A DNA stretch of 64,000 nt from Roseibaca calidilacus. GTDB taxonomy: Bacteria; Pseudomonadota; Alphaproteobacteria; Rhodobacterales; Rhodobacteraceae. A model generated the notes under the pieces. It ran no database searches. It had not been told where the DNA came from and saw nothing but the letters and a program-made list of their open reading frames with translations. Shown one piece after another: positions 19,936 through 60,584 of this stretch. Numbering within the stretch: position 1 is the stretch's first letter; each line of letters opens with the position of its first letter. Position numbers and translations under genes: made by a program. The DNA is taken from NCBI RefSeq assembly GCF_001517585.1, contig NZ_FBYC01000004.1:186001-250000 (forward strand), given 5' to 3'.

Positions 19936-20610
19936 TTGACCCTTGTTTTCCAAACACAGAATGGCGTCACGCTGGCCGGTGGGGCCGGTTTTGAACCTGC
20001 TGTTCTGGCCGAGGCGCTGGCGCTGGCACCCGATCTGGTGGCCGCCGATGGCGGGGCAAATCAGCTGGATGATCTGGGCCAGACCCCGCAGACCGTGATC
20101 GGCGACCTTGATTCGATTCGTCCCGCGCTGCGCGCCCGCCTTGGCCCGCGCGTGAACCATGTCCCCGAGCAAGACAGCACCGATCTGGACAAGTGCCTGC
20201 GCCTTGTTGCGGCACCCTTCATGATTGGTCTGGGCTTTCTAGGTGCGCGCACCGACCACACATTGGCCGCGATGACATCGCTTGTCCGCAATGGCAGTGC
20301 GCGGGTGCTGTTGCTGGGGGCAGAAGATATCTGCCTGCTGGCGCCGCCCGCGCTGACCATGCCCTTGGAACCCGGCGCGCGCGTGTCGCTGTTTCCCATG
20401 GGCGCGGTTGCGGGCCAATCGTCCGGGCTGGAATGGCCGATCGACGGGCTGGATTTTGCACCCGACGCGCGTATTGGCACCTCGAACCGGATGGCGGGCG
20501 ACAGCTTGCGCCTGACCGTCAATGCGCCGCGCATGATCCTTGTGCTGGATCGGTGCTGTTTGCCCCGGCTTCTGGCCGCAATTCTGGCAACACCCGACTG
20601 GGCGCGTTGA
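19936..20610 (+). CDS. Thiamine pyrophosphokinase
   Basis: This enzyme transfers pyrophosphate from ATP to thiamine to give thiamine diphosphate. The family blocks are visible: VAADGGANQLDDLG, TVIGDLDSIRP, QDSTDLDKCLR and LGFLGARTDHTLA, then a C-terminal beta domain with GTSNRMAGDSLRLTV. The start is taken as TTG 19936 because GGAAGG lies seven bases upstream, giving about 224 residues; a GTG at 19912 is the alternative. The next downstream feature is the cobalamin riboswitch, so it is probably not part of the B12 operon. Confidence 0.9.
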   Translation: MTLVFQTQNGVTLAGGAGFEPAVLAEALALAPDLVAADGGANQLDDLGQTPQTVIGDLDSIRPALRARLGPRVNHVPEQDSTDLDKCLRLVAAPFMIGLGFLGARTDHTLAAMTSLVRNGSARVLLLGAEDICLLAPPALTMPLEPGARVSLFPMGAVAGQSSGLEWPIDGLDFAPDARIGTSNRMAGDSLRLTVNAPRMILVLDRCCLPRLLAAILATPDWAR

Positions 20611-20664
20611 AAAACTGTTGCGCCGACTCGGCGAAGGTTCTACGACCAACACACTTTGGTCCGG

Positions 20665-20835
20665 TTGTGTGAACAGCCGGTTAAAATGGGAACGCGGTGC
20701 GCGGCCTTTTGGGGCTGCAAATCCGCGACTGCCCCCGCAACTGTAAGCGGTTAGCAATGTCGGCATATGCCACTGTGGTGCAAGCCACGGGAAGGCCCGG
20801 CAAAGCGACGACCCGCAAGTCAGGAGACCTGCCAA
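20665..20835 (+). ncRNA. Cobalamin (AdoCbl-type) riboswitch
   Basis: The B12-box aptamer core is unmistakable. AAAATGGGAACGCGGTGC lies at 20683-20700, ACTGCCCCCGCAACTGTAAG near 20728-20747, a GCCACTG...GGGAAGGC stem at 20769-20796, and AAGTCAGGAGACCTGCC at 20818-20834. It sits 150 bases upstream of the btuB start and should shut down the whole btuB-to-tonB operon when cobalamin is plentiful. The expression platform lies in the next ~130 bases. The exact outer borders are approximate. Confidence 0.95.
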
Positions 20836-20947
20836 AGTGTTCACCCTATCCCGGCGCGGGCGGCGCTGCGGGTAACGGTTTTACCGTAGCGGTGGCATCT
20901 TTCGCCGTCTGCGGTGCGCCCTGCACCTGCCGACATTCTCTCGTTTT

Positions 20948-20965
20948 GGGCCGCGCTGTCGGCCC
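20948..20965 (+). promoter_or_regulatory. Leader hairpin before btuB, candidate expression platform
   Basis: GGGCCG (20948-20953) pairs perfectly with CGGCCC (20960-20965) around CGCTGT, ending 18 bases before the btuB ATG. There is no long T-run, so translational masking of the weak AGGTG site at 20972 fits better than termination. An upstream imperfect hairpin, from CGCTGCGGGTAA at about 20869 to TACCGTAGCG, could compete with it. Pairing was judged by eye. Confidence 0.45.
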
Positions 20966-20983
20966 TTGCATAGGTGTAGACCC

Positions 20984-22819
20984 ATGGCCAAACGCCATTT
21001 CCTTGGCACGGTCGCAGCCCTTGGCCTGATGGCCGGTGGTGCTGCGGCACAAGATATTATCAACCTTGAAGAAGTGACCTTTTCGGTCAGCCGTGTTCCG
21101 CTAGAGCTTGGCCGCACCGGCGCGCGAGTGCAGGTGCTGACACGCGAAGATATTGAAGAAGCGAATGAAACAGAGGTAAACACGGTCCTGTCGCGACTAC
21201 CCGGCGTGACCATGACCCAGCGTGGGCCGATTGGTGCCTCTGGCAGCGTGCGCATTCGCGGGGCGGATGAGCGTTATTTCCCGGTGCTTATTAACGGCAT
21301 CAATATGAGCGATCCGTCCCAGTTGCAGTCGCAATTCAGTTTTGCTGGTCTGACCAGCAGCGCGGTTTCGCGGCTGGAAGTGTTGAAGGGCTCTCAATCG
21401 GCGATCTACGGGTCGAATGCGATTGCTGGTGTGGTCAATTTGACCATGGGGGAAATCCCTGACGAGGTCGGTTCTGAAACCAAGGTCACGACGGAATTCG
21501 GCAGTTTCAACACGCGCCGACTGGGGTTGTCCTACGGGCAGCGGTTTGAACGTGGCGAAGTGGCCTTCACCTTTGAGCGCGCCTTAACCGATGGTTTTTC
21601 CAGCGCCGATGAAAACGATGGCAACACCGAAGATGACGGTTTCCGCAGCACGATCCTATCCTTTCGCGCACGGCACGAATTGACGGATACCGTGGCGGTC
21701 GGGGCCTCGGCCTTTTACCAAGATTCGTTTAACGAATTCGACGCCGGTGCGGGGGTAGGCGGGGATGACCCCAACCGCTTCGGTCTGTCAGAGCGCTACG
21801 GCCTGCGCGGTTTTGTTGAATTCGCGCTCGGCGCGGTCGAGAATGAAATCAGCATTGAAACCAGCCGCAACGAGCGCGCCGACCCGAACGCGCCGACGAC
21901 CTTTACCACGACCGATTTTCAGGGCGGACGCACAGGCATTCAATATAATGGGCGCGTTGATCTGTCGGGCAACAGCACCTTGGTGTTCGGTGCGCAATAC
22001 CAGCGTGAAACCTATGATGCGTTCCGCCCCGGTGGTGCAAGCTTCGACGGCACGATCCGGCGCAATGCGCTCTTTGCCGAATACCTTTATGCACCGACCG
22101 AAAATATCGACCTTACATTTGCCCTGCGCCGCGAGGATGACAGCCGGTTTGGTGGACAGATCACGGGTCGCGCAGCCTTTGTCTGGCGTCCTGATGCCGC
22201 GACAGTCGTGCGCGCGTCTGCCGGGACAGGGTTCCGCGCGCCTTCGGCGAATGAAATGTTTGGCCCGTTTGGTGCCAACCCCAACCTGAAGCCCGAAGAA
22301 AGCGAATCTTTCGATATAGGTGTGTCGCGTGAATTCGGGGCGTTCAAAGCTGATGTGGCATTGTTCCGGACCGATATCGATAATCTGATCGGCTATACTA
22401 CCGGCTATGTTCAGATCGCGGGCCGCTCGCGCCTGCAAGGGGTAGAAATGTCGGGCACCTATGACATAAGCGACAATCTCTCCCTGTCCGGCGCGTATAC
22501 ATTCACCGATGCTAAAGATCGCTCCGGCAACCCTGTCGGCAACGTGCCCAAGCATGATCTTGCAGTCTCGGTGGACTGGAAGATTATGGAAGGGTTGCGC
22601 AATACCACCACGCTTGCGGCATCTTCCGAGCGGTTCGGGTTTGGCGGGTCATCCATACCTGGATTCGGCGTGGTCAATACGAATTTCAGCTATGACCTGA
22701 CTGAGCGCGCGCAACTGACCTTCCGTGTCGAGAACATCTTTAACAAACAGTATCAGACGGTTGAAGGTTACGGCACTTCTGACAGGGCCTTCTACCTTGG
22801 CCTGTCGTCGCGTTTCTAA
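20984..22819 (+). CDS. btuB: TonB-dependent cobalamin receptor
   Basis: This 611-residue outer-membrane receptor has a signal peptide (MAKRHFLGTVAALGLMAGG, cleavage after AAA), a TonB-box-like stretch near the mature N-terminus, and a plug domain with RLPGVTMTQRG, SVRIRGADERYFPVLINGI and VLKGSQSAIYGSNAIAGVV. The C-terminal barrel ends in FYLGLSSRF with the terminal aromatic expected for BAM substrates. Cobalamin specificity is inferred from the riboswitch and the btuFCD-cbiZ neighbours. The start at 20984 is favoured over a TTG at 20966 because the signal peptide begins there. Confidence 0.93.
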   Translation: MAKRHFLGTVAALGLMAGGAAAQDIINLEEVTFSVSRVPLELGRTGARVQVLTREDIEEANETEVNTVLSRLPGVTMTQRGPIGASGSVRIRGADERYFPVLINGINMSDPSQLQSQFSFAGLTSSAVSRLEVLKGSQSAIYGSNAIAGVVNLTMGEIPDEVGSETKVTTEFGSFNTRRLGLSYGQRFERGEVAFTFERALTDGFSSADENDGNTEDDGFRSTILSFRARHELTDTVAVGASAFYQDSFNEFDAGAGVGGDDPNRFGLSERYGLRGFVEFALGAVENEISIETSRNERADPNAPTTFTTTDFQGGRTGIQYNGRVDLSGNSTLVFGAQYQRETYDAFRPGGASFDGTIRRNALFAEYLYAPTENIDLTFALRREDDSRFGGQITGRAAFVWRPDAATVVRASAGTGFRAPSANEMFGPFGANPNLKPEESESFDIGVSREFGAFKADVALFRTDIDNLIGYTTGYVQIAGRSRLQGVEMSGTYDISDNLSLSGAYTFTDAKDRSGNPVGNVPKHDLAVSVDWKIMEGLRNTTTLAASSERFGFGGSSIPGFGVVNTNFSYDLTERAQLTFRVENIFNKQYQTVEGYGTSDRAFYLGLSSRF

Positions 22820-23618
22820 GGCACTGGCTGCGGCCTTTGCCCTTTGGGCAGGGGCCGCGGCTGCGGGGCCACCCGAGAGGGTGGTCTCTATCAACCTGTG
22901 CACGGACCAGTTGGCCATGTTGCTGGCGGCACCGGGGCAGTTGGTGTCGATCTCGCGCATTTCGCATGACCCGAACGTGTCGGTCATGCTGGAAGAAGCG
23001 CGCAAATACCCCATCAACCACGGGCAGGCGGAAGAGGTGTTCCGCCTGAGCCCCGATCTGGTGTTGGCCGGGCAGTTCACCTCGTCCTACACGGTCGGGC
23101 TATTGCGGCGGCTGGGGGTAGAGGTGGTGCAACTGCCCATCGTCACCAGTCTGGACCAGATCCCGGACGCCATCCGCGAGGTGGGCCGTTTGCTGGGGCG
23201 CGCGCGCCAAGCCGATACTGTCGCCACGCAATTCGAAACCGATCTGGCCGCCTTGCGCGCCGATCCGGACCGCCGCCCCCGCGCGGCGTTGCATTATGCC
23301 AATAATTACACATCGGGCGACAAATCACTTGCCAATGACATTCTGACGGCGGCGGGCTTTGCCAATATCGCGCTGGAAGCGGGTCTGTCCGGCGGCGGCA
23401 CCCTGCCGATGGAGCGGTTGCTCATGCTGATGCCCGATCTTGTCATTTCCGGTCAGAATTATCCCGGCGCGTCGCGTTCGGAATCTGTGCTGACCCATCC
23501 CGCGATGAACGCGCTGCGCGACCGGCACGCGGGCAGCGCGCTGTCCGATGCCGAATGGGTCTGCGGCACGCCCGCCGTTTTGCGCGCCATTGCCCGGCTG
23601 CAAGAGGCTGGCCAATGA
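22797..23618 (+). CDS. btuF: Periplasmic cobalamin-binding protein of ABC importer
   Basis: This type III periplasmic binding protein of about 273 residues has PERVVSINLCTDQLAMLLA, SPDLVLAGQFTSSYT and LMLMPDLVISGQNY, as in BtuF/FecB-like proteins. The signal peptide ACRRVSKALAAAFALWAGAAAA precedes them. No ATG fits this signal; the TTG at 22797 is proposed, overlapping the end of btuB by 23 bases, with an ACAGGG ribosome site upstream. An in-frame extension to 22725 lies inside btuB. It delivers corrinoid to BtuCD and overlaps btuC by four bases. Confidence 0.88.
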   Translation: MACRRVSKALAAAFALWAGAAAAGPPERVVSINLCTDQLAMLLAAPGQLVSISRISHDPNVSVMLEEARKYPINHGQAEEVFRLSPDLVLAGQFTSSYTVGLLRRLGVEVVQLPIVTSLDQIPDAIREVGRLLGRARQADTVATQFETDLAALRADPDRRPRAALHYANNYTSGDKSLANDILTAAGFANIALEAGLSGGGTLPMERLLMLMPDLVISGQNYPGASRSESVLTHPAMNALRDRHAGSALSDAEWVCGTPAVLRAIARLQEAGQ

Positions 23619-24601
23619 CCCGCACGCTGACCCTTGTCCTGAGTGTGCTGATCGTGGCGCTGTTCGCGCTGTCGCTGCTGATTGGCCCGGCGGGGCTGTC
23701 GCCTGCGACCTCGCTTGCCGCCCTGCTGCGGGGCGAGGGGCTGGCCGAAACGCTGGTCATGCGCGAAATCCGCCTGCCACGCGCCATTCTGGCCGCCATG
23801 ATCGGGGCCGCGCTGGGCTTGGCGGGTGCGGCGATGCAGGGCTATCTGCGCAACCCCTTGGCCGAGCCGGGGTTGCTTGGGGTCTCTGGCTCTGCGGCTT
23901 TGGGCGCGGTGATCGCGCTGCAAACGGGCTTTGCCGCGCAATTTGCCTTGGGCCTGCCCATGGCCGCATTGCTGGGGGCGGTGCTGGCGGTGGGGCTGAT
24001 CCTGGCGCTGGCGGGGCCACGCGGCGGCGCGCTGATGCTTATTTTGGCCGGGATCGCGGTATCCGCTTTGGCAGGCGCTTTGACCGCGCTGGTGCTGAAC
24101 CTGTCGCCCAACCCCTTCGCCGCGTCCGAAATCATGTTTTGGATGATGGGCTCGCTTGCCGACCGGTCCATGACACATGTCTGGTTGGCCGCACCGTTCA
24201 TTGCCCTCGGGGCTGTTGTGCTATTGGCCCAAGGCCGCGCGTTTGACGCGCTGACACTGGGCGAAGACAGCGCCGCCTCGTTGGGCGTGAACCTGTTCCG
24301 CTTGCGGCTATTGCTGGTGTTGGCCGTGGCCAGCATGGTGGGCGCGGCCACGGCGGTCGCGGGCGCTGTGGGCTTCGTGGGGCTTGTCGTGCCGCATATC
24401 CTGCGCCCATTTGTTGGCGCGCGCCCGTCAAGTTTGCTCTGGGCCTCGGCGCTGGGCGGCGCTGTGCTGGTGCTGGCCGCCGATATTGCCGTGCGGCTGG
24501 TGCTGCCTGACCGCGACCTGAAACTGGGGGTGCTGACCGCGATTGTTGGCGCGCCCTTGTTCCTGCACTTGGTGTTCAAGACACGGGGGCAGGCGCTATG
24601 A
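23615..24601 (+). CDS. btuC: Cobalamin ABC importer permease
   Basis: This 328-residue FecCD/BtuC family membrane protein has about ten hydrophobic segments. Family blocks include REIRLPRAILAAMIGAALGL, GYLRNPLAEPGLLGVSG, FWMMGSLAD and VGFVGLVVPHILRPFVG (the coupling region for the ATPase). The ATG at 23615 overlaps the btuF stop (ATGA) and its own stop overlaps btuD, so the three are translated together. The longer upstream frame is inside btuF. Confidence 0.94.
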   Translation: MTRTLTLVLSVLIVALFALSLLIGPAGLSPATSLAALLRGEGLAETLVMREIRLPRAILAAMIGAALGLAGAAMQGYLRNPLAEPGLLGVSGSAALGAVIALQTGFAAQFALGLPMAALLGAVLAVGLILALAGPRGGALMLILAGIAVSALAGALTALVLNLSPNPFAASEIMFWMMGSLADRSMTHVWLAAPFIALGAVVLLAQGRAFDALTLGEDSAASLGVNLFRLRLLLVLAVASMVGAATAVAGAVGFVGLVVPHILRPFVGARPSSLLWASALGGAVLVLAADIAVRLVLPDRDLKLGVLTAIVGAPLFLHLVFKTRGQAL

Positions 24602-25353
24602 CTGGTCTTGCCCTGTCCGATTTTGCCGTGGCCCGTGGCCCTTGTGACGTGTTGCGCGACATCAATCTTTCCGTGGGCGCGGGCGAATTCGTGGGCTTGC
24701 TGGGCCCCAATGGCGCGGGCAAGACCACGCTCATGCGCGCGGCACTGGGGATGATGCCGCATCGCGGGCAATCCTCGTTATCTTCCTTGCCCGCCCGCGC
24801 CCGCGCCCGCCATGTCGCATGGCTGCCGCAAGCGCGCGAAATCGGATGGCCGGTCAGTGTGGTGGATCTGGTCACGCTGGGACGTCTGCCGCATCTGCCA
24901 CGCGGGCAAAAGCCGGGCGATGCTGACCGCGCCGCGATTGACGTGGCGCTTTCCCGCATGGGGCTGGACGGGTTTCGCACCCGCATCGCCACGCAGCTTT
25001 CGGGCGGTGAACAGGCCCGCGTTCTGATCGCTCGCGCACTGGCGCAGGACACGCCCTTGTTGATGGCCGATGAACCGGCGGCGGGGTTGGACCCTGCGCA
25101 TCAGCTGGGGCTGATGGACACGCTGGCGGCAGAGGCCGCGCGCGGGCGCAGCGTGATCGCATCCCTGCACGATTTGGGGTTGGCTGCGCGCTATTGCACG
25201 CGCCTTGTCGTGCTGTGGCAAGGCGGCATCGCCGCCGATGGCCCACCGCGCGATGTTCTGACGCCCGAGCTGCTGGCCCGCGTGTTCCAGATTCGCGCCT
25301 ATGTGCAGCAGACAGAGGACGGTCCGATTTGCCAGCCGCTGGGGGTGGTCTGA
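24598..25353 (+). CDS. btuD: Cobalamin ABC importer ATP-binding protein
   Basis: This 251-residue ABC ATPase has Walker A GLLGPNGAGKTTLM, Q-loop near WLPQAREIGWP, signature QLSGGEQARVLIARALAQ, Walker B LLMADEPAAGLDP and the switch His in IASLHDLGLAARY. It drives BtuCF import. It overlaps btuC by four bases, and its TGA shares a base with the cbiZ ATG. Confidence 0.95.
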   Translation: MTGLALSDFAVARGPCDVLRDINLSVGAGEFVGLLGPNGAGKTTLMRAALGMMPHRGQSSLSSLPARARARHVAWLPQAREIGWPVSVVDLVTLGRLPHLPRGQKPGDADRAAIDVALSRMGLDGFRTRIATQLSGGEQARVLIARALAQDTPLLMADEPAAGLDPAHQLGLMDTLAAEAARGRSVIASLHDLGLAARYCTRLVVLWQGGIAADGPPRDVLTPELLARVFQIRAYVQQTEDGPICQPLGVV

Positions 25354-26021
25354 TGCAGGTCACGCTTGCCGCGCCATGGTTGGATTGTGATCTGGGCGCG
25401 CCGCACCGGGTGCTGTCTTGGGCGCCGCATCGCCCCGGCTACCAGATTGCGCAGCATATCCAGTGGCGGCAGGTGCGCAACGCCGATCTGCCCGCCGATC
25501 TGGATGTGGCTGCGTGGCTGGCGCGTGAAATGGCGGGGCGCGACGCGGTGTGTTTGCTCACCTCGCGCGATATTGCCCATCACCATCTGGCCCGCGCCAC
25601 GGTAGAGGATGTGACGGCAGAGACGCTTGCCACTGTTGGCCTGTCGAATGCCGAAACGGTCGGCGCGCGCGTGGACCGCGCTGGCCGCAACTGGGACAAG
25701 GTCTTGCCCAGCTACGGCACCATCAACATAGCGGTCAAACTGTCGCTGCCCTTGTCTGACACGGGCTTGCTGGAAGCGCTCAGCATCGCCACCCAAGCGC
25801 GTACCGCCGCGATAATTGCCGCAGGCCACCGCGTGCCGGGCGGTCGCACGGCCACGGGCACCGGCACCGATTGTATTGTCGTTGCCGCACCGCCGGGTGC
25901 GCAGGATTACGCCGGGCTGCATACCGCGCAGGGCGAGGCGCTTGGCCGTGCGGTGTTTGACGCCGTCGCGCGCGGCGCGGCAGAGTGGCGGGCCACAATC
26001 GGCCCGCAAAGCGAGGGATGA
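25353..26021 (+). CDS. cbiZ: Adenosylcobinamide amidohydrolase
   Basis: This 222-residue protein carries the CbiZ signature blocks VGLSNAETVGAR, GTINIAVKLSLPLSDTGLLE and HRVPGGRTATGTGTDCIVVA. CbiZ cleaves adenosylcobinamide or pseudocobalamin-type corrinoids to adenosylcobyric acid, so that imported corrinoids can be rebuilt with the preferred lower ligand; this was shown for the Rhodobacter enzyme. The gene was probably acquired from archaea in the lineage's history. Position in a riboswitch-led uptake operon supports salvage and remodelling. Start overlaps the btuD stop by one base. Confidence 0.93.
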   Translation: MQVTLAAPWLDCDLGAPHRVLSWAPHRPGYQIAQHIQWRQVRNADLPADLDVAAWLAREMAGRDAVCLLTSRDIAHHHLARATVEDVTAETLATVGLSNAETVGARVDRAGRNWDKVLPSYGTINIAVKLSLPLSDTGLLEALSIATQARTAAIIAAGHRVPGGRTATGTGTDCIVVAAPPGAQDYAGLHTAQGEALGRAVFDAVARGAAEWRATIGPQSEG

Positions 26022-26641
26022 TGACAGGGTTTCAGGAATTTTTGCTGACAGGCGGCCCCGCACTTTGGGCAATTGCCGCGCTGTCGGTCGTGACCATGGC
26101 GCTGATCTTGTGGAAGCTGTGGGACATGGCGCGCCTTGGCGCATGGTCGCGCGGCCCTGCCGAAGCCGCCGTTGCCGCTTGGCGCAGCGGCGCAGGGCAG
26201 GGGGCGCTTGCGCCCTTGGCCGGGCGCAGGGGCCTGCGCGCCCGCGTGCTGCGCTGCGCGATTCAAGCGCGGCTTGACCCCGCCCTGACCGACGATCACG
26301 CCCGCGAGGAAACCGCCCGCGTCGCGAAATCCGCGCTGATGCAGACACGGCGCGGGTTGCGCGCCTTGGAACTGATCGCCACCATCGCGCCTTTGATCGG
26401 GCTTTTGGGCACGGTTCTGGGCATGATAGAGGCGTTTCAGGCGCTACAAGCTGCCGGCAACCGCGCCGACCCCGCAGCGCTTGCAGGTGGCATTTGGCAA
26501 GCACTTCTGACCACGGCGGCGGGGATGGCGGTGGCGATCCCGGCCTCCATGGCGCTTAGCTGGTATGACAGCATCTGCGAACGGGTGCAGGCCGACATGG
26601 AAGACTTGGCCACCCGAGTCTTTACCACCGGGGGGCGCTGA
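26021..26641 (+). CDS. exbB: ExbB-type proton channel protein (MotA/TolQ/ExbB family)
   Basis: This ~206-residue protein has an N-terminal membrane segment (ALWAIAALSVVTMALILWKL) and two more near the C-terminus, with the family core LELIATIAPLIGLLGTVLGM and LLTTAAGMAVAIPASMALSWY. It pairs with ExbD to use the proton gradient to energise TonB. Its ATG (26018 or 26021) overlaps the cbiZ stop. Its placement in the B12 operon suggests service to BtuB rather than to the whole envelope; tolQ is separate at 51.1 kb. Confidence 0.9.
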   Translation: MTGFQEFLLTGGPALWAIAALSVVTMALILWKLWDMARLGAWSRGPAEAAVAAWRSGAGQGALAPLAGRRGLRARVLRCAIQARLDPALTDDHAREETARVAKSALMQTRRGLRALELIATIAPLIGLLGTVLGMIEAFQALQAAGNRADPAALAGGIWQALLTTAAGMAVAIPASMALSWYDSICERVQADMEDLATRVFTTGGR

Positions 26642-27024
26642 TGTTGCAGTTCGGCCCGCCACGTCCGCGCCGCAAACCCAGCCTGACCCCAATGATAGAT
26701 GTGGTGTTCCTGCTGTTGGTGTTCTTCATGCTGGCCGCGCGTTTCGGGCAGGATGTGGGGCTGGCGCTGGCCCCCGCCGGACATGCGGATGGTAGTTATT
26801 CCGGCCCACCAAGGCTGGTCGAATTCGCCGGTGGCGCGGTCTGGCTAAACGGGGTTGAAACCGCTCTCGCAGACTTGCCAGATGCTTTGACCCCGCTGAT
26901 GCCCGGCCCCGATGCGCTGGTCGTCTTGCGCCCGCGCGACGGTGCCAGCGTGCAGGATGCCGCCCACCTGACCGATGCCTTGCGTGCGGCTGGGTTGCCT
27001 TCGCTTGTGCTGATGGAGCCGTGA
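26641..27024 (+). CDS. exbD: ExbD/TolR family protein with proton-carrying Asp
   Basis: This 127-residue protein has a short basic N-terminus, one membrane helix with LTPMIDVVFLLLVFFMLAAR, and a periplasmic domain. The Asp in PMID corresponds to the essential transmembrane Asp of ExbD/TolR. It partners ExbB in the TonB motor. ATG overlaps the exbB stop by one base and the stop overlaps the second exbD. Confidence 0.9.
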   Translation: MLQFGPPRPRRKPSLTPMIDVVFLLLVFFMLAARFGQDVGLALAPAGHADGSYSGPPRLVEFAGGAVWLNGVETALADLPDALTPLMPGPDALVVLRPRDGASVQDAAHLTDALRAAGLPSLVLMEP

Positions 27025-27401
27025 TGGATTTCGCGCCCGCCTCTCGCCCCCGCGCCCCGCGCGAAAGTGTCGTGCCCATGATAAATGTGGTGTTTTTGCT
27101 GCTGATCTTCTTCCTGATGACCGCGCAGATCACCGCGCCCGACCCGGTAGAGGTGACACTCCCTAACGTATCCTTGGCGGATGGCCCGGTGCCAGAGGGC
27201 GCGGCGGTCCTGTGGCTTGGCCCCGCAGGCAATCTGCTGGCGGCGGATGGCACGGCCCCTGACCTGGCCGCGCTGGACGCAGCCGTGACCCTGCGCGCCG
27301 ATGCCGATGCCCCGGCGGCGGGTTTGGCCCTTGCCCTGCGCGAGTTGGGGCAGGGCGGGGTGCGTGCGGTCACGCTTGTTGCGCGGCAGGGGGGCGGCTG
27401 A
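27024..27401 (+). CDS. exbD: Second ExbD/TolR family protein, Asn in place of the channel Asp
   Basis: This 125-residue protein has the same layout as its upstream paralogue: a short cytosolic tail, one helix (SVVPMINVVFLLLIFFLMTA) and a periplasmic domain. In the helix the expected Asp is Asn (codon AAT), so this copy alone should not carry protons. It may form a mixed dimer with the Asp-bearing paralogue. The ATG at 27024 overlaps the previous stop; a GTG lies just before it. Confidence 0.88.
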   Translation: MDFAPASRPRAPRESVVPMINVVFLLLIFFLMTAQITAPDPVEVTLPNVSLADGPVPEGAAVLWLGPAGNLLAADGTAPDLAALDAAVTLRADADAPAAGLALALRELGQGGVRAVTLVARQGGG

Positions 27402-28195
27402 TGCGCACAGGGCTGGAATTCGCGGGCTTCGGTGTGGCAGCGGTTGCGGTGCATCTGGCGGCCTTCGCGGCCATTGCCCCTGACGGGATGACGGCGGGTG
27501 GCGATGGTGGCGAGGGGTCTGTGACGGTGGCCGCCCCTTTGGGCGCGGCGGATCCGGCTTTGTCGGCCATGGTCCGCAACTGGGACGCCCCGGTGCAGGT
27601 CGCGGCCCCGCCCGACATGGCCGCTCCGCCTGCGCCGCAGGCCGCGCCCGATGCGCTGCCGGATATGTCCCGCGATACCTTGCCCAAGTTGCCGGGTCTG
27701 GTTGCGCCAAGGGCCAAGACCGCGCCGCGCATGGCCCCGCCCGACCTGCCCAAACTGTTCGCCGAGCCCGACACCCCGCCCGAAACCCGCCCGCGCGCGC
27801 GGCCCGACCCCAAGGCCAAGGCCAGCGCCCCGGCCAGCCCGCCCGCGCAACGCGCCAGCGGCCAAGGTGCGGCCGCGCAACGCGGCCAAGGCGCGGCGCA
27901 GGTGCAAAGCGGTGGCGGCAATTCCGCGAGCGCCTTGGCCGAGTGGGGCGGACGCATCCGCGCCGCCGTGCAGCGCGCGCAATCGCGGCCCCAAACGCGC
28001 GCACGCGGCGTGGTGCAGTTGCGCCTGTCGGTCACAGCGGGGGGGCAGTTGGCAGGGGTCAGCATTACCGGCAGTTCCGGCAATGCGGCGCTGGACCAAG
28101 CCGCTTTGCGCGCCGTGCAGCGCGCGCGCCTGCCCCGTGCGCCGCAGGGCGTGAGCGGGACGCATCAGTTCAACTTGCCGGTCGGCTTTCGATAG
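27401..28195 (+). CDS. tonB: TonB-like energy transducer
   Basis: This 264-residue protein has an N-terminal hydrophobic anchor (FGVAAVAVHLAAFAAIAP), a long Pro/Ala/Lys/Arg-rich periplasm-spanning region, and a C-terminal TonB-type domain with VVQLRLSVTAGGQLAGVSI and NAALDQAALRAVQRARLP. It should link the ExbBD motor to BtuB. Last gene of the operon; it ends 20 bases before the convergent ubiB stop, with no clear hairpin terminator between. Confidence 0.88.
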   Translation: MRTGLEFAGFGVAAVAVHLAAFAAIAPDGMTAGGDGGEGSVTVAAPLGAADPALSAMVRNWDAPVQVAAPPDMAAPPAPQAAPDALPDMSRDTLPKLPGLVAPRAKTAPRMAPPDLPKLFAEPDTPPETRPRARPDPKAKASAPASPPAQRASGQGAAAQRGQGAAQVQSGGGNSASALAEWGGRIRAAVQRAQSRPQTRARGVVQLRLSVTAGGQLAGVSITGSSGNAALDQAALRAVQRARLPRAPQGVSGTHQFNLPVGFR

Positions 28196-28215
28196 GATTA
28201 CCTTGCGCGGCTTAT

Positions 28216-29745
28216 CTACAGCGCCGCCCCGATCACGACACCCAGCGCGACCAGCCCACCACCGGCCAGACCATAGCCCAAGGGGCCAACGCGGCGCGCG
28301 GGCGTTTGCTCTGGCTTGGGATGGGCCTGCGCGATCAAGGCGTCCTCGACCAGTCGCGGCAGGCGCGGGCCAAAGCGCGACAGGATCTTTGCGGTCTGCG
28401 CCAGATCGCGGGCAAAGGCCTGCGGGCCGACATGGGTGCGGACATATTCCTCGACCACGGGCTTGGCGACCTGCCACATGTTGATTTCCGGGTTCAGCGA
28501 CCGCGCGACCCCTTCGACCACCACCATGGTGCGTTGCAGCAAGATCAACTCGGTGCGGGTTTCCATGCCGAAACGTTCCGTCACCTCGAACAGATAGGCC
28601 AGAAGTTTCGCCATCGAAATATAGCGCGCATCCATCCCGAAAATTGGCTCGCCGACCGAGCGCAGCGCGCGCGCGAAATCGTCGATATCGCGGTCGGGGG
28701 GGACATATCCGGCTTCGAAATGCACCTCGGCCACGCGGCGGTAATCCTTGCGGATAAAGCCGAACAGGATTTCGGCATAGGCGCGGCGGGTATAGGCATC
28801 GATCCGGCCCATGATGCCGAAATCGAAGGCGATGATCCCGCCATCCGCCGTGACCTTCATATTGCCTTGGTGCATGTCGCCGTGAAAGAACCCGTCGCGC
28901 AGCGCGTGGCGCAGGAACAGCGTCAGCACGCGGGTGCCAAGCTCGCGCCGGTCAATGCCAAGCGCATCCAGCGCGGCATTGTCGCCCATGGGCACACCTT
29001 CGGCCCAGCCCAGCGTCATCACGCGGCGCTGCGACAGGTGCCAAACCGGGCGCGGCAGGCTAAAGCCTTCGTCCCCTTCGGTATTGGCGGCGAATTCGGC
29101 AGCCGAAGCCGCCTCTATCCGCAGGTCCAACTCGCCTTCGACCAGTTCCTCGAAATGCGCGATCACATCCAGAGGGCGCAGGCGGCGCGATTTTGGCAGC
29201 AGCAGTTCGATGATCTGCGCGGCCAGATGGAAGGCATCGACATCGCGGCGAAAGGCGCGTTCCACGCCGGGGCGCAGTACTTTTACCGCCACTTTCGCGC
29301 CGGTTTCGGCCAGCCTTGCCTGATGCACCTGCGCGATCGACGCGGCGGCAACGGGTTCGGACAGTTCCGAAAACGCCTCTGCCAGCCTGATGCCCAGTTC
29401 CGCTTCGATCTGGGCCACGGCCTCCGCGCGCGGGAAGGGGGCCAGCTTGTCTTGCAGATAGCGCAACTGGTCAGCCAGTTCTTGACCCACCACATCGGGG
29501 CGGGTGGCCAGCGTCTGCCCGAATTTGATATAGGCTGGCCCAAGCGCCGTCAGCGCGCGCACCAAGGGCGGCAAGCTCTCATCACCCTTCAGCCCCAACA
29601 TTTTGAACGGCCAGCCCAGCACCCGCGCGGCCAGTCGCAACCGCGATGGGGCATTCATGGCCTCCAGCACTTCGGCCATGGCGCCTGTGCGTTCAAACGT
29701 GGCGCCGGTGCGCACCAGCCGCCAAATATTATGCGGTCCGCGCAT
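28216..29745 (-). CDS. ubiB: Ubiquinone biosynthesis kinase-like protein UbiB
   Basis: This 509-residue protein of the ABC1/ADCK/UbiB atypical kinase family has the KxGQ motif in YIKFGQTLATRPDVV, the nucleotide-binding Lys in VAVKVLRPG, and the catalytic and metal-binding loops GFFHGDMHQGNMKV and IAFDFGIMG. It ends in a hydrophobic membrane anchor (GGGLVALGVVIGAAL). It is needed for ubiquinone synthesis, with ATPase activity on the inner membrane. The gene starts immediately after the ubiE stop, so the pair is an operon. Confidence 0.95.
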   Translation of the reverse strand: MRGPHNIWRLVRTGATFERTGAMAEVLEAMNAPSRLRLAARVLGWPFKMLGLKGDESLPPLVRALTALGPAYIKFGQTLATRPDVVGQELADQLRYLQDKLAPFPRAEAVAQIEAELGIRLAEAFSELSEPVAAASIAQVHQARLAETGAKVAVKVLRPGVERAFRRDVDAFHLAAQIIELLLPKSRRLRPLDVIAHFEELVEGELDLRIEAASAAEFAANTEGDEGFSLPRPVWHLSQRRVMTLGWAEGVPMGDNAALDALGIDRRELGTRVLTLFLRHALRDGFFHGDMHQGNMKVTADGGIIAFDFGIMGRIDAYTRRAYAEILFGFIRKDYRRVAEVHFEAGYVPPDRDIDDFARALRSVGEPIFGMDARYISMAKLLAYLFEVTERFGMETRTELILLQRTMVVVEGVARSLNPEINMWQVAKPVVEEYVRTHVGPQAFARDLAQTAKILSRFGPRLPRLVEDALIAQAHPKPEQTPARRVGPLGYGLAGGGLVALGVVIGAAL

Positions 29746-48175: not shown

Positions 48176-49483
48176 TTATGGCAAAAGCGGCCCCCAGGCC
48201 GGGTCACTGGCCGGGGAGGAAAGCGGCACGCGGCGCAGGTTGCGCCCCGAGATGTCGACCGCATAAAGCGCAGGTTCGCCGCCCTGCGCTTGACGGGTGA
48301 ACATGATAACACGCCCGTTTGGCGCCCATGTTGGCCCTTCGTCAAGGAAAGATGCCGTGAGCAAGCGTTCCTCTGACCCGTCAGAGCGCATGACGCCAAT
48401 ATGGAAGCGCCCTGCATGCGATTTCGTGAAGGCGATCATATCGCCGCGCGGTGACCAGACCGGGGTGGAATAGCGGCCCTCGCCGAAACTGATGCGCTGT
48501 GCGTCGCCACCATCGGCGGACATGACATAGATCTGGCTGGTTCCAGAGCGGTCGGATTCAAAGGTGATCGACCGCCCATCGGGTGAAAAGCTGGGCGCGG
48601 TGGCAATGGCGGGCGAATTGGTCAAGCGTTCCATCTGCCCGTTCGACAGGTCCAGCCGGAACAGGTCGGTGCTGCCGCCCATCGCGGCGGAAAAGACAAG
48701 CGCGCGCCCATCGGGCGAAAACCGGGGCGAGAAGGTCATCGCGCCGGGAATCTCGCCCACAAGCTGGGATTGCCCCGAGCGCAAATCCATCAGCGCAATG
48801 CGCGGACTGCCGGTCTCATAGGTTGTATAGACCGCCCTGTCACCTGTGGGCGAGACGCGCGGCGCTATGACCAAGGACCGACCATCGGTCAGGGTGCGTC
48901 GATTCTCGCCATCCTGATCCATGATCGTCAGTTGCTTGGTGCGGTTGTTGCGCGGGCCGGATTCTGCCACGAACAAAACACGGCTGTCGAAATAGCCGTC
49001 CTCGCCGGTGATCTGGCTATAAACCGCATCCGAGACCTTGTGCCCCATGCGCCGCCAATCCCGCGCGGCACCGGCAAATTGCAAGCCTTCGCCCATCTGC
49101 TGGCCAGAGACCACGTCAAACAGCCGGAACTTGACCGTCAGCCTGTCGCCGCTGGCCGAAACCGCCCCCACGATCAGGGCTTGCGCATTGACGGCGCGCC
49201 AGTCCGGATAGGAAATGCTGGTGTCGAAACTGGTGATCCGCGCGATATGCGATTCTCGTGGCACCTCGCGGAACAGGCCGGTGCCCGACAGGTTGGATGC
49301 GACGACGCGCGACAACGCATCGGCATATTCCATGCCGCCATTGTCTTCGGGCACGAAGGCGGGCACGGCAAACGGCATCGGTTCAATCACCCCTTCGGTG
49401 ATCTGCAGCCGCAAGGGCTGTGCCTGCGCCGCCATGCCAAAGCCCATCCAGATGGCCAGAAAAGCAAACAAAAGCCGTGTCAT
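48176..49483 (-). CDS. tolB: Tol-Pal periplasmic protein TolB
   Basis: This 435-residue protein has a signal peptide ([20 protein letters not shown]), an N-terminal alpha/beta domain ([16 protein letters not shown]) and a six-bladed propeller with repeats such as [31 protein letters not shown] and [16 protein letters not shown]. It relays between TolA and Pal. The ATG overlaps the tolA stop (ATGA). An upstream in-frame GTG/ATG lies inside tolA. Confidence 0.96.
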
Positions 49484-50616
49484 CGCAATCTCATCCCTTC
49501 GGGGTTGAACGTAATCTCGACGTCGCGCCAAGCTTCGTAGCTTTCAGGTGGCAAACCGTAGCCATCGCTTGCGCAACGAATGATCGCGCGGCGTGCGGCC
49601 TCGAATGCCTGCGAAACGGCACCTTCGGAACCGCCGTTATTATCGACCATATAGATACTGCCTTGCTCTGGCATAGCCCCCGGGTTCATCGAGAACCCAA
49701 CGGTTACGGTAACCTGCTGCGCTTCGGTCGAAAGCGTGCCGATGTTCCAGCATTGCTGTATCGCAAGGCGCAAACGGTCCGCTTCGGTTGCGCTCAGGCC
49801 GGGTTGCGCAGCCGTATCAATGCCGGACAACGATTCGGCAAGGGCAGCGGCCACTGCGTCCGCAACGTCATCGGCGACCTCTGGCTCGGGGTCTGGCTCA
49901 GGCTCTGGTGTTGGCTCTGGGTCTGCCTCGGCCGTTTCTGCCTCATCTTCGGCGGGCGGCGCAGGGCGTTCTGGCCGCGTGCGCGGGCGCGGGCTGACCG
50001 TGGGGGCGGCTGCGGCGCGTTCTTCGTTTTCGGTTTCGGTTTCCGTGGCCTCTGTCACGATTTCGGTCGTTGCCTCTGGCGGGGCGACCTGCTCTTGTTC
50101 AGGCAGAACCTCTTCGCCCGGCGCATCCGCGCTGGCTTGCGGTCGCGCGGTCTGGTCGATCGTGGCGTCTTCTGGCGGGGCCTCTGTCGGGGTTGGGGCA
50201 ACACGGTCCACTGGGCGCGGGGCCGGGCGCTCTGTCGCGCCGGGGGTCAGCGCAGGTGAAAAGATTGCGCCGGTCGACTCTGGCTCCGGTTCGGTTTGCG
50301 GTTCTGGTTCCGGCTCTGGCTCGGGTTCAGGCTCGGGCTCTGGTTCCGGTGTTGGCTCGGGCTCTGGCTCCGGCTCTGGCTCCGGTGTGGGTTCCGGTTC
50401 GGGGCTTGGCGCAGGCTCCGGCGCGCCGCCGCCGCTTAATGCCGCGAATTCCTCGGCACTGACCAAAGACACTTCGGCCACCGGCATTTCGCGCTCATGC
50501 GACGGTGCGGCGAACAGGTCGAACACCAGCACCCAGCCCACAAGGCCAAGATGCAGCACGGCCGAGGCTTTCTGCCCCGTGTCCATCCGTCCAACAATGT
50601 CGCTCGCTACGCTCAT
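49480..50616 (-). CDS. tolA: TolA-like energy transducer with Pro-Glu repeat linker
   Basis: This 378-residue protein has one N-terminal membrane segment ([20 protein letters not shown]), a long periplasmic linker dominated by Pro-Glu dipeptides (about residues 65-110 and 225-240), and a C-terminal domain with [10 protein letters not shown] and [15 protein letters not shown] that corresponds to TolA domain III. It links the TolQR motor to TolB/Pal. The linker differs from the Ala/Lys/Glu helix of enterobacterial TolA, and the DNA for it is a degenerate six-base tandem repeat. Confidence 0.88.
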
Positions 50617-50631
50617 GGCGGCAATTGGCCC

Positions 50632-51102
50632 CTAGTTGCCTTGCCCGTCGAATCGCGGACCGCCCTGGTCTGTGACCAGCCCGATATCATTGAAGCCACC
50701 CGCGTTCAGCGCGCCCATGATCTGCACGACGCGCTCATAGGGAATGGACCCGTCTGCGCGCAGGAACACTTTGCGGTTGCTGCGTTCGGATGCCACCGCG
50801 CGCAGCCGCGGGATCAGATCGTCCTCGGCGATGTCACTGTTCATCAGCATGACTTGCCCTTCGGCGGTCAGTGTCACCGACAGCGGTTCCTCTTGCTCGG
50901 CAGGCAGTGCGCCCGCTGAAGTGCGCGGCAATTCCACCGGCACACCCACCGTCAGCATAGGGGCAGCCACCATGAAGATAATCAGCAGCACCAGCATGAC
51001 ATCGACAAAGGGCGTGACGTTGATCTCTGACATGCGGACGGCGCGCGCGCGCCGACCACGCCGCCCCGACCCTCTGGATTTGCCCATCAGTTGCGCACCC
51101 AT
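50632..51102 (-). CDS. tolR: Tol-Pal protein TolR
   Basis: This 156-residue protein has a basic cytosolic start (GKSRGSGRRGRRARAVRMSE) and one helix with INVTPFVDVMLVLLIIFMVA, in which the proton-carrying Asp is present. A periplasmic domain with VFLRADGSIPYERVVQIMGA follows. It starts two bases after the tolQ stop. ATG 51102 is listed; ATG 51087 is possible. Confidence 0.95.
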   Translation of the reverse strand: MGAQLMGKSRGSGRRGRRARAVRMSEINVTPFVDVMLVLLIIFMVAAPMLTVGVPVELPRTSAGALPAEQEEPLSVTLTAEGQVMLMNSDIAEDDLIPRLRAVASERSNRKVFLRADGSIPYERVVQIMGALNAGGFNDIGLVTDQGGPRFDGQGN

Positions 51103-51103
51103 A

Positions 51104-51802
51104 TCAGGCAGCGTCCAACTGGCGCGACAGGATGGTGTTGAACTCGTCTGCGAAGGCCTCATAGCCCGACAGGATCTCGTCGCTGTCGTCGCTCAGCTTG
51201 TTGTAGAAAATCGTGGCGGGAATAGCGGCCAACAACCCAAGGCCGGTGGCCAGTAGCGCTTCGGCAATGCCCGGCGCGACAACGGCAAGGTTCGTTGATT
51301 GCGCCAGTGCAATTTCCTCGAACGCGTATTTTATGCCCCAAACCGTGCCGAACAACCCGATGAACGGGCTGGCCGACCCGACAGAGGCCAGAAAGGTCAG
51401 GCCGCGCGTCAAATCGCGCCCCTCGCGTGCGATGGCCACATCCATTGACCGGTCAATCCGGGCAACTGCGCCGGGGATCAACCCTCCGTCCGAGCGGTGC
51501 GAACGGCGCCATTCCGACATGCCGGCGGCGAATACACGTTCCGGCGGGCTGGCGGGGTTCGGGCCAATTTGGTCAAACAACTGGTCGAGCGGTTCGCCCG
51601 ACCAAAAGGCGGCGTCGAACGCCTCTGCCTCGGCGCGGGCTTTGCGGTAGCGGATGTGTTTCTGGATGATGATCGCCCATGACCAGAATGACGCGACGAT
51701 CAGCGAGATCATCACCAGTTTCACGGTCAGCGTGGCGCGGGCAAATAGCGCAATCAACGAAAAGTCGATATCTTGCGCGGCGGTCAGTGTGGTCGGGTCC
51801 AT
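51104..51802 (-). CDS. tolQ: Tol-Pal protein TolQ
   Basis: This 232-residue protein has three membrane segments: LTVKLVMISLIVASFWSWAI, then GLTFLASVGSASPFIGLFGT with VWGIKYAFEEIA, and GIAEALLATGLGLLAAIPAT. These are the MotA/TolQ/ExbB core. It forms the proton channel with TolR for cell-envelope constriction. ATG 51802 is favoured; the frame runs to 51829. It begins about 100 bases after the ybgC stop. Confidence 0.95.
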   Translation of the reverse strand: MDPTTLTAAQDIDFSLIALFARATLTVKLVMISLIVASFWSWAIIIQKHIRYRKARAEAEAFDAAFWSGEPLDQLFDQIGPNPASPPERVFAAGMSEWRRSHRSDGGLIPGAVARIDRSMDVAIAREGRDLTRGLTFLASVGSASPFIGLFGTVWGIKYAFEEIALAQSTNLAVVAPGIAEALLATGLGLLAAIPATIFYNKLSDDSDEILSGYEAFADEFNTILSRQLDAA

Positions 51803-51902
51803 GGTCCTGCTCGGGTTTGGGGTCCGCATCTGACGGCGGCTTTGCGCCGGACTTTACACCAAAGCAAGCGGTCTACCAACACGATGGCGTTATACCATGG
51901 GT

Positions 51903-59714: not shown

Positions 59715-60584
59715 TCATGCCGCCGCTTTTTTCAGGTCTCGCATTGCATCCTCCAGCTCTGAAAACTCCGGTCTGAAATGGTGCGGTGCGTTTTGCCGAC
59801 CGACTTCGATGCAGATATTTGCAGGATGTGAATGCATGTTTGCGACCAACACTTCGCGGATCAATTGGAAAAAGTGATCGTCCTCTGCAACGATCGCGCC
59901 CATGCGCGCAGCGATCGGGCCGACAAAACCGTAAGCCAAGAATACACCTAGAAACGTGCCCGTGAGTGCCCCGCCAATCATTTTCCCAAGCACTTCGGGC
60001 GGTTCGTCGATTGCGCCCATTGTCTTGATGATGCCGAGCACAGCTGCCACGATCCCGAGTGCAGGCAAGGCATCCGCCACAACCTGAACGGCGTGGCTGG
60101 TATGCAGCGCATGTTCTCGTCTGGCTTCCAGCCGCTTGTCGAGCACGTCTTCCACCTGATGCGGATCGTCATAATTCATCGAGGCTGCGCGCATCGTGTC
60201 GCAAATCAGTGCGACGGCATCATGGTCTTTTTGAATTTTCGGATAGGCGCTGAAGATGGAGGACTGGGATGGAGACTCTATATGCTCTTCGACCGCGACG
60301 GGGTTCTGGCGTGCCAACCAGATAAGCTGGAATAGCAAGCATAGCAGGTCGCGGTAATCTGTCGCTTGCCATTTCGGCCCCTTGAACACCTTTGCGATGT
60401 CACGGCCGGTTCCCTTTATGGTTGCAAGGTCATTTCCAAGCACGAAGGCACCCAGCGCCGCGCCCCCGATCATGACCATTTCGAAGGGCAGTGCCTTCAA
60501 GATGATGGTCATTGATCCACCGGCCCCCAGATAGCCGCCAAAAACCAGACCAACGACAAGAATTATGCCAATAATAGGTAACAC
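59715..60584 (-). CDS. motA: Flagellar motor stator protein MotA
   Basis: This 289-residue protein has four membrane segments (PIIGIILVVGLVFGGYLGAG, FEMVMIGGAALGAFVLG, LPALGIVAAVLGIIKTMGAI, GALTGTFLGVFLAYGFVGPI) and a cytosolic loop that contacts FliG (QLIWLARQNPVAVEEHI). The functional Pro residues in ALPALG and VGPIA are present. The start is GTG with AGAGG six bases upstream. No motB is in the window. Confidence 0.95.
   Translation of the reverse strand: MLPIIGIILVVGLVFGGYLGAGGSMTIILKALPFEMVMIGGAALGAFVLGNDLATIKGTGRDIAKVFKGPKWQATDYRDLLCLLFQLIWLARQNPVAVEEHIESPSQSSIFSAYPKIQKDHDAVALICDTMRAASMNYDDPHQVEDVLDKRLEARREHALHTSHAVQVVADALPALGIVAAVLGIIKTMGAIDEPPEVLGKMIGGALTGTFLGVFLAYGFVGPIAARMGAIVAEDDHFFQLIREVLVANMHSHPANICIEVGRQNAPHHFRPEFSELEDAMRDLKKAAA

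Follow-up and report, generated by a model that had tools for sequence, protein, structure and literature searches.

A cobalamin riboswitch and nine overlapping genes

The Roseibaca calidilacus DNA analysed here (the window, 64,000 nucleotides; contig NZ_FBYC01000004.1, positions 186,001 to 250,000) carries a cobalamin (vitamin B12) riboswitch followed by nine genes, all on the + strand, in the order btuB-btuF-btuC-btuD-cbiZ-exbB-exbD-exbD-tonB. The aptamer scores 138.2 bits against an Rfam cut-off of 31.5 and is the sole Rfam match above a family cut-off in the window; it is full length and ends 133 nucleotides (nt) upstream of a B12 gene, btuB. All nine proteins exceed their Pfam cut-offs. 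The features are as follows.

20640..20850, + strand: cobalamin riboswitch aptamer (Rfam RF00174, 138.2 bits, E 9.7e-35, full-length model match)
20984..22819, + strand: btuB (PF07715, Plug, and PF00593, TonB barrel)
22797..23618, + strand: btuF, periplasmic corrinoid-binding protein (PF01497, Peripla_BP_2; TTG start inferred)
23615..24601, + strand: btuC, permease (PF01032, FecCD; best NCBIfam model PRK03784 BtuC, below its cut-off)
24598..25353, + strand: btuD, ATPase (PF00005, ABC_tran; best NCBIfam model 'corrinoid ABC transporter ATPase', below its cut-off)
25353..26021, + strand: cbiZ, adenosylcobinamide amidohydrolase family (PF01955, 154.8 bits)
26021..26641, + strand: exbB (PF01618, MotA_ExbB; distinct from the TolQ of the genome)
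26641..27024, + strand: exbD1, with a transmembrane Asp, D20 (PF02472)
26698..26700, + strand: D20 codon of ExbD1, GAT (from alignment with an ordinary single ExbD)
27024..27401, + strand: exbD2, with N21 (Asn) where the transmembrane Asp would be (PF02472)
27084..27086, + strand: N21 codon of ExbD2, AAT (from alignments)
27401..28195, + strand: tonB (PF03544, TonB_C; TIGR01352 above cut-off)

Overlaps across the eight junctions range from 1 to 23 nt. The longest, 23 nt between btuB and btuF, holds given the inferred TTG start of btuF at 22797; btuF/btuC and btuC/btuD overlap by 4 nt each, and the remaining five junctions, from btuD/cbiZ through exbD2/tonB, by 1 nt each. An earlier note, made from the letters of this DNA, had read the same gene order with overlapping or touching junctions behind a riboswitch, and RF00174, Pfam and the coordinates bear it out. 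The extent it gave, 20665 to 28195, is right at its end, but the riboswitch begins 25 nt earlier, at 20640. Such a riboswitch-led run of overlapping genes leaves no intergenic room for a promoter, and in this respect the claim of a single riboswitch-led unit is supported. A scan of 20500-28400, which recognises sigma-70 consensus sites only, gave one promoter-like match, at 22355 within btuB (shuffles 1.3 +/- 1.2), and nothing above chance was found in the promoter and terminator scans.

The receptor has plug and barrel domains, and its best matches in the Protein Data Bank (PDB) are the vitamin B12 transporter BtuB (8e-43). Its best NCBIfam model is TIGR01779 (TonB-B12), but its 261 bits fall below the equivalog cut-off of 600, so its name rests on the best match, the riboswitch and the neighbouring genes. 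From this context the protein is a putative corrinoid receptor. ExbB, ExbD and TonB are encoded together and pass their Pfam cut-offs; no NCBIfam ExbB or ExbD cut-off was passed. Taken together, the nine genes very probably constitute one cobalamin-repressed transcription unit for self-sufficient corrinoid import, in a host that is probably unable to build the corrin ring.

One TonB, one receptor and a probable need for corrinoids

The host genome (3.35 Mb, 99.98% complete) was searched with profiles for TonB and for TonB-dependent receptors, all of which gave matches in the Escherichia coli, Caulobacter and Bacteroides controls. A single TonB_C match was found in the whole genome (E<=0.1), the operon TonB, and the only Plug and the only TonB-dependent barrel detected by the two receptor profiles both belong to the operon BtuB. 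The MotA/ExbB/TolQ family has four matches genome-wide: the operon ExbB, TolQ (51104-51829), MotA (59715-60584) and a fourth at C4:1439247 (L059). As far as these profiles reach, the TonB motor seems to have no client other than BtuB and to be a B12-dedicated energiser. The earlier note had proposed such an energiser, and this part holds in a stronger sense than it was meant, since the operon encodes the sole TonB_C protein and the sole TonB-dependent receptor of the genome. The idea of a private motor beside a shared one was dropped on the same two counts. The siderophore or heme uptake assay that the note had suggested would have no known receptor to act on, as the two profiles show no second TonB-dependent receptor. 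With a TonB machine seemingly devoted to one nutrient, TonB phenotypes should be B12 phenotypes.

CobH/CbiC and CobK/CbiJ catalyse ring-synthesis steps that are common to both known routes to the corrin ring. Profile searches of the genome gave no match to either CobH/CbiC (PF02570) or CobK/CbiJ (PF02571), although the two profiles matched only 7/14 and 3/14 controls, among which there was no known cob-pathway relative. This is a strong hint, though no proof, that the host probably does not make the corrin ring; with two ring-synthesis genes unmatched, the operon would be its main or only corrinoid source. A second cobalamin riboswitch (C4:940688) is followed by a short open reading frame (ORF), a metH that is split between two genes, and then cobO and cobQ. 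Together with the missing CobH and CobK matches, this riboswitch-led group points to an organism that thus uses and finishes corrinoids, probably without ring synthesis. Beyond cobO and cobQ, which were noticed, no search was aimed at the late steps that would follow CbiZ (cobS, cobU/P, cobD, cobT, bluB).

The second riboswitch precedes a B12-using enzyme, the B12-dependent methionine synthase. In this region outside the window (L058, 2689-7853), methionine synthase is split into two overlapping genes of 348 and 907 amino acids, with cobO and cobQ after them.

We infer the following sequence of events. Low intracellular cobalamin would let the riboswitch permit expression from btuB to tonB; TonB, energised by ExbB with ExbD1 and ExbD2, would open BtuB; BtuFCD would carry the corrinoid inward; and CbiZ would strip unsuitable corrinoids for rebuilding. 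Having BtuB as its only client would explain why the energiser is encoded in the operon, as there would be little reason to make it otherwise.

The operon combines known parts in an arrangement that is recurrent in the family and plausibly explained by BtuB as the only client. B12 transport genes are a standard target class of RF00174 regulons (PMC3766115), as in the window; the main text of that paper has no mention of tonB or exbB, both of which the window has. In the btuB-btuFCD-cbiZ clusters of Chlorobium and Rhodobacter sphaeroides, as far as the accessible accounts go, no exbB-exbD-exbD-tonB set is described, whereas the window operon has one; in the comparison with these clusters the window genome also differs by having no CobH or CobK match. 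According to PMC3621897, the Methylobacterium plasmid pCMU01 resembles the window in carrying btuB behind a cobalamin riboswitch, with btuFCD; there, however, exbB, exbD and tonB are core chromosomal genes with no plasmid copy (PMC3621897), whereas the window operon includes them. Among the matches listed, titles and abstract openings of open-licence full texts yielded no exbB-exbD-tonB set behind a cobalamin riboswitch and no tandem ExbD with Asn, a scope that does not establish that they are undescribed.

Recurrence of the coupling and a possible client rule

In order to see how often tonB lies in a riboswitch-led run, a single genome from each of 120 genera of the family (G labels) was surveyed, and the stretches around TonB matches were fetched and mapped (a 108-base TonB match at a contig end of G105 was left out). 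TonB_C was found in 65/120 genera, Plug in 65/120, CbiZ in 20/120 and a cobalamin riboswitch in 120/120. A tonB was called 'coupled' when a riboswitch preceded it by no more than about 9 kb, the two sharing contig and strand, and when no gene of the opposite strand was mapped in the interval. On this definition tonB is coupled in 18 of the 120 genera, so that the placement of a Ton set inside a riboswitch regulon, which the earlier note had singled out as less described, is not a one-off. The full exbB-exbD-exbD-tonB cassette is present in 15 of the 18 (G000, G014, G021, G024, G032, G033, G035, G036, G057, G073, G077, G080, G089, G101 and G104; the contig ends within tonB in G021, G035 and G080). 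Eight of these 15 have cbiZ. In the other three coupled genomes tonB comes without exbB or exbD, after btuB (G083) or after btuBFCD (G107, G068). In these runs (L046, L050 and L089, respectively) tonB is the last gene and neither exbB nor exbD was mapped close by; their TonB may borrow another motor, e.g. TolQR.

A further set of named loci, the best 80 of 555 confirmed, was chosen by ExbB similarity; it overlaps the 120-genome set, so the counts of the two are not additive. A B12-box motif lies upstream of exbB on the same strand in 31 of these best 80 loci, 23 with and 8 without btuB between, and 15 with cbiZ. The motif is a proxy for the riboswitch; cmscan confirmed 9/9 of the loci given to it, out of 180 mapped, including five of the eight btuB-less loci (L140, L142, L150, L156 and L217). 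Only one binding-protein gene separates the B12 box from exbB in L217 (Rhodobaculum claviforme). The nearest named records by ExbB, among the matches listed, are Roseibaca ekhonensis (88% identity) and Roseibaca sp. Y0-43 (84%); the window's own genome records are possibly excluded from this list. The same nine-gene order stands behind a B12 box in two loci, L138 of Roseibaca ekhonensis, where cmscan confirmed the riboswitch, and L139 of a Roseibaca sp.

Several relatives without cbiZ have a second PF01497 (Peripla_BP_2-type) protein in the slot between btuD and exbB, by eye with no signal peptide (L140, ~2.4-3.2 kb, L144, ~8.2-9.0 kb, and others); in L217 (~8.2-9.0 kb) it is the binding-protein gene just mentioned ahead of exbB. 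Both cbiZ and such a protein occur in L049 and L148.

The coupling was then compared with the receptor set of each genome. BtuB was called by a neighbouring riboswitch among the places listed or by its btuB profile score (accepted receptors scored at least 506; those below 200 or unmatched were not counted), and receptors were counted from the Plug search. Ten single-receptor genomes (G012, G016, G029, G034, G048, G067, G070, G097, G109 and G111) were not counted as BtuB-only, and two Plug matches stayed outside the typing, the sole one of G054, which is weak, and the fourth of G079. Where BtuB is the sole receptor, 14/20 genomes are coupled, vs 4/24 where BtuB is accompanied by others (Fisher p 0.0006, a test that ignores ancestry, the genera not being independent; p 0.0005 when limited to genomes with a TonB found). 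The BtuB-plus-others set had grown from 21 to 24 with G020, G053 and G076, none of them coupled; at 21, p was 0.0016. All four coupled multi-receptor genomes have a second TonB (G032, G033, G068) or a second exb cassette (G057, L076, which runs off its contig). A tree of BtuC was built for 31 of the 44 genomes with BtuB, including 17 of the 18 that are coupled; on it, coupling needs 7 changes, 3 of them forced by well-supported branches. These figures are suggestive of a simple rule, namely that tonB regulation follows its client set.

Three genomes (G020, G026 and G078) have TonB-dependent receptors, BtuB among them, with no TonB_C match, which points to a divergent TonB or to missing sequence.

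A number of observations weigh against the operon reading and the client rule. In the leader, no terminator-like site was found by the scan between the aptamer and btuB, and folding (z -1.6) gave no clear off-switch. Coupling was defined by contig, strand and distance, and about 1 kb separates cbiZ from exbB in G033. Six of the 20 BtuB-only genomes are uncoupled: four (G008, G011, G039 and G043) keep an exb cassette at another place, where the fetched DNA shows no B12 box, G026 lacks a TonB match and G118 is split over contigs. The Fisher p rises to 0.011 if three contig-edge cases are counted as uncoupled, and a phylogeny-aware pair test on the BtuC tree found 3 usable pairs, with a median p of 1 and no power.

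Three other explanations bear on the motor and on CbiZ. The exbB-tonB genes could be driven by an internal, B12-independent promoter in cbiZ or btuD, so that the motor would be constitutive and the riboswitch would govern the upstream genes only. Some other promoter must act in several relatives (L060, L061, L064, L071, L075), where the fetched DNA around the cassette shows no B12 box, but in the window the last nucleotide of cbiZ is also the first of exbB, and the sole + strand promoter-like match to the sigma-70 consensus lies in btuB. In seven named loci, moreover, the B12 box stands ahead of btuC-btuD and the cassette without btuB, and in L217 almost directly ahead of the cassette, and we regard an internal promoter as distinctly improbable. 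Still less credence can be given to the exb/tonB set being a Tol-like envelope machine, despite the 73 bits that ExbB scores on the TolQ model vs 42 on the ExbB model (both far below cut-off) and a TolQ as its best solved relative: separate TolQ and TolB proteins, above curated cut-offs, are encoded in the window, the last protein is above the TonB-family cut-off and below that of TolA, and the set adjoins btuB in many genera. The Tol-like identity was dropped on the separate TolQ/TolB and the TonB-family last protein. The earlier note had proposed that imported corrinoids with a wrong lower ligand are rebuilt, and cobamide rebuilding through CbiZ is plausible by analogy: the R. sphaeroides CbiZ hydrolyses pseudocobalamin and not cobalamin, according to PMC7733943, in agreement with this idea. 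That CbiZ serves cobinamide salvage instead of lower-ligand exchange of complete cobamides is a possibility of some weight, if the less favoured one; Pfam names the family adenosylcobinamide amidohydrolase, and with no recognised ring synthesis any corrinoid would be worth salvaging. The R. sphaeroides specificity speaks against it, and the two roles are mutually compatible.

The unlike ExbD pair

The two ExbDs of the window share 26% identity. In alignments, D20 of ExbD1 shares a column with the Asp found in a typical lone ExbD, a column that we take to be that of E. coli ExbD Asp25, while ExbD2 has N21 there, so that only ExbD1 carries the transmembrane Asp and ExbD2 lacks the residue thought to carry protons. 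This Asn, like the two unmatched ring-synthesis genes, had been missed by the earlier note. In the AlphaFold models both proteins combine a membrane helix with a periplasmic domain like that of ExbD; the best PDB match of each is an ExbD, at E 1.5e-4 for ExbD1 and, weak but first, at E 4e-3 for ExbD2.

The pattern was followed in loci L038-L217 (n=180), which combine the family set and the named set and contain some genomes twice. Asp is found in 149/150 ORFs classed as ExbD1 and Asn in 144/145 classed as ExbD2 (145 and 140 distinct ORFs, respectively), the exception in each class being a fragment without the column. The profiles behind these classes include the residue itself, and gene order alone yields the same split: 141 groups are Asp-Asn, another three agree once a fragment or an additional gene is allowed for, and all five ExbDs that occur singly have Asp. 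An Asp/Asn pair peculiar to B12 operons was considered and dropped, as the pattern is common to B12-linked and free-standing cassettes and to those beside other receptor or ABC genes. Some of these non-B12 cassettes may belong to heme systems. In a phylum survey of 249 genomes with the Asn-type profile, 30 loci among its best matches, which show spread and not frequency, comprised 19 tandems (18 Asp-Asn and 1 Asp-Asp) and 11 lone ExbDs, each with Asp. Ten tandems come from outside the family, and 9/10 of these are Asp-Asn.

Tandem ExbDs in one Ton operon are known from Sphingobium (tonB1-exbB1-exbD1-exbD2; PMC8599685), Xanthomonas (exbD1-exbD2; PMC3551730) and Stenotrophomonas (tonB1-exbB1-exbD1a-exbD1b; PMC11002078). 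The Sphingobium authors state that Asp-25 is conserved in both ExbDs (PMC8599685), whereas the window has Asn in the second and tonB last. The E. coli type motor has two identical Asp-bearing ExbDs in an ExbB pentamer; the window encodes two dissimilar ExbDs, which may form like or unlike pairs. Two ExbD helices lie inside the ExbB pentamer (PMC11658791). A hexameric ExbB with three ExbDs is also reported, so that a pair is not certain (PMC5903867), and one TonB D-box is captured by an ExbD homodimer (PMC10907165).

We tentatively propose, at somewhat less than even confidence, that the tandem-ExbD Ton systems of the family, including that of the window, use an obligate ExbD1-ExbD2 heterodimer with one proton-carrying transmembrane helix. 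In the simplest reading each motor may contain one ExbD1 and one ExbD2, with one proton site instead of two, and ExbD2 perhaps holds TonB. The competing view, that ExbD2 is not a working motor partner but a decaying duplicate that is being lost, or else serves as an assembly factor, draws on the E. coli ExbD(D25N) variant, which bears the same change and is called inactive in PMC11658791, and on the lower overall conservation of ExbD2 (mean column identity 50% in 40 sequences vs 61% for ExbD1 in 32). However, ExbD2 keeps the same place and has Asn in 144/144 scorable copies, as do 9/10 tandems outside the family, where decay would scatter the residue, and six positions (I20, N21, V23, F24, D93 and G112) are invariant in the 40 ExbD2 sequences; we consider decay or an assembly role unlikely. 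If the heterodimer is real, each ExbD pair of this naturally occurring motor would have a single proton site, against two in the homodimer. The Asp/Asn pair bears on an open question, of which a natural one-residue-per-pair motor would be a direct test, and the riboswitch-controlled, single-client version would be the simplest natural setting in which to measure such a motor.

Upstream of the operon lies a thiamine diphosphokinase gene, and the operon ends 20 nt from a convergent UbiB gene (28216-29745, - strand). Tol-Pal genes occupy 48176-51829 of the window (- strand), with TolQ (51104-51829) and TolB above NCBIfam cut-offs; the ORF of 378 amino acids between them (49480-50616), perhaps TolA, gave no informative match. 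The MotA flagellar stator gene (59715-60584, - strand; 349.7 bits, above cut-off) is the third ExbB/TolQ/MotA superfamily member within 35 kb.

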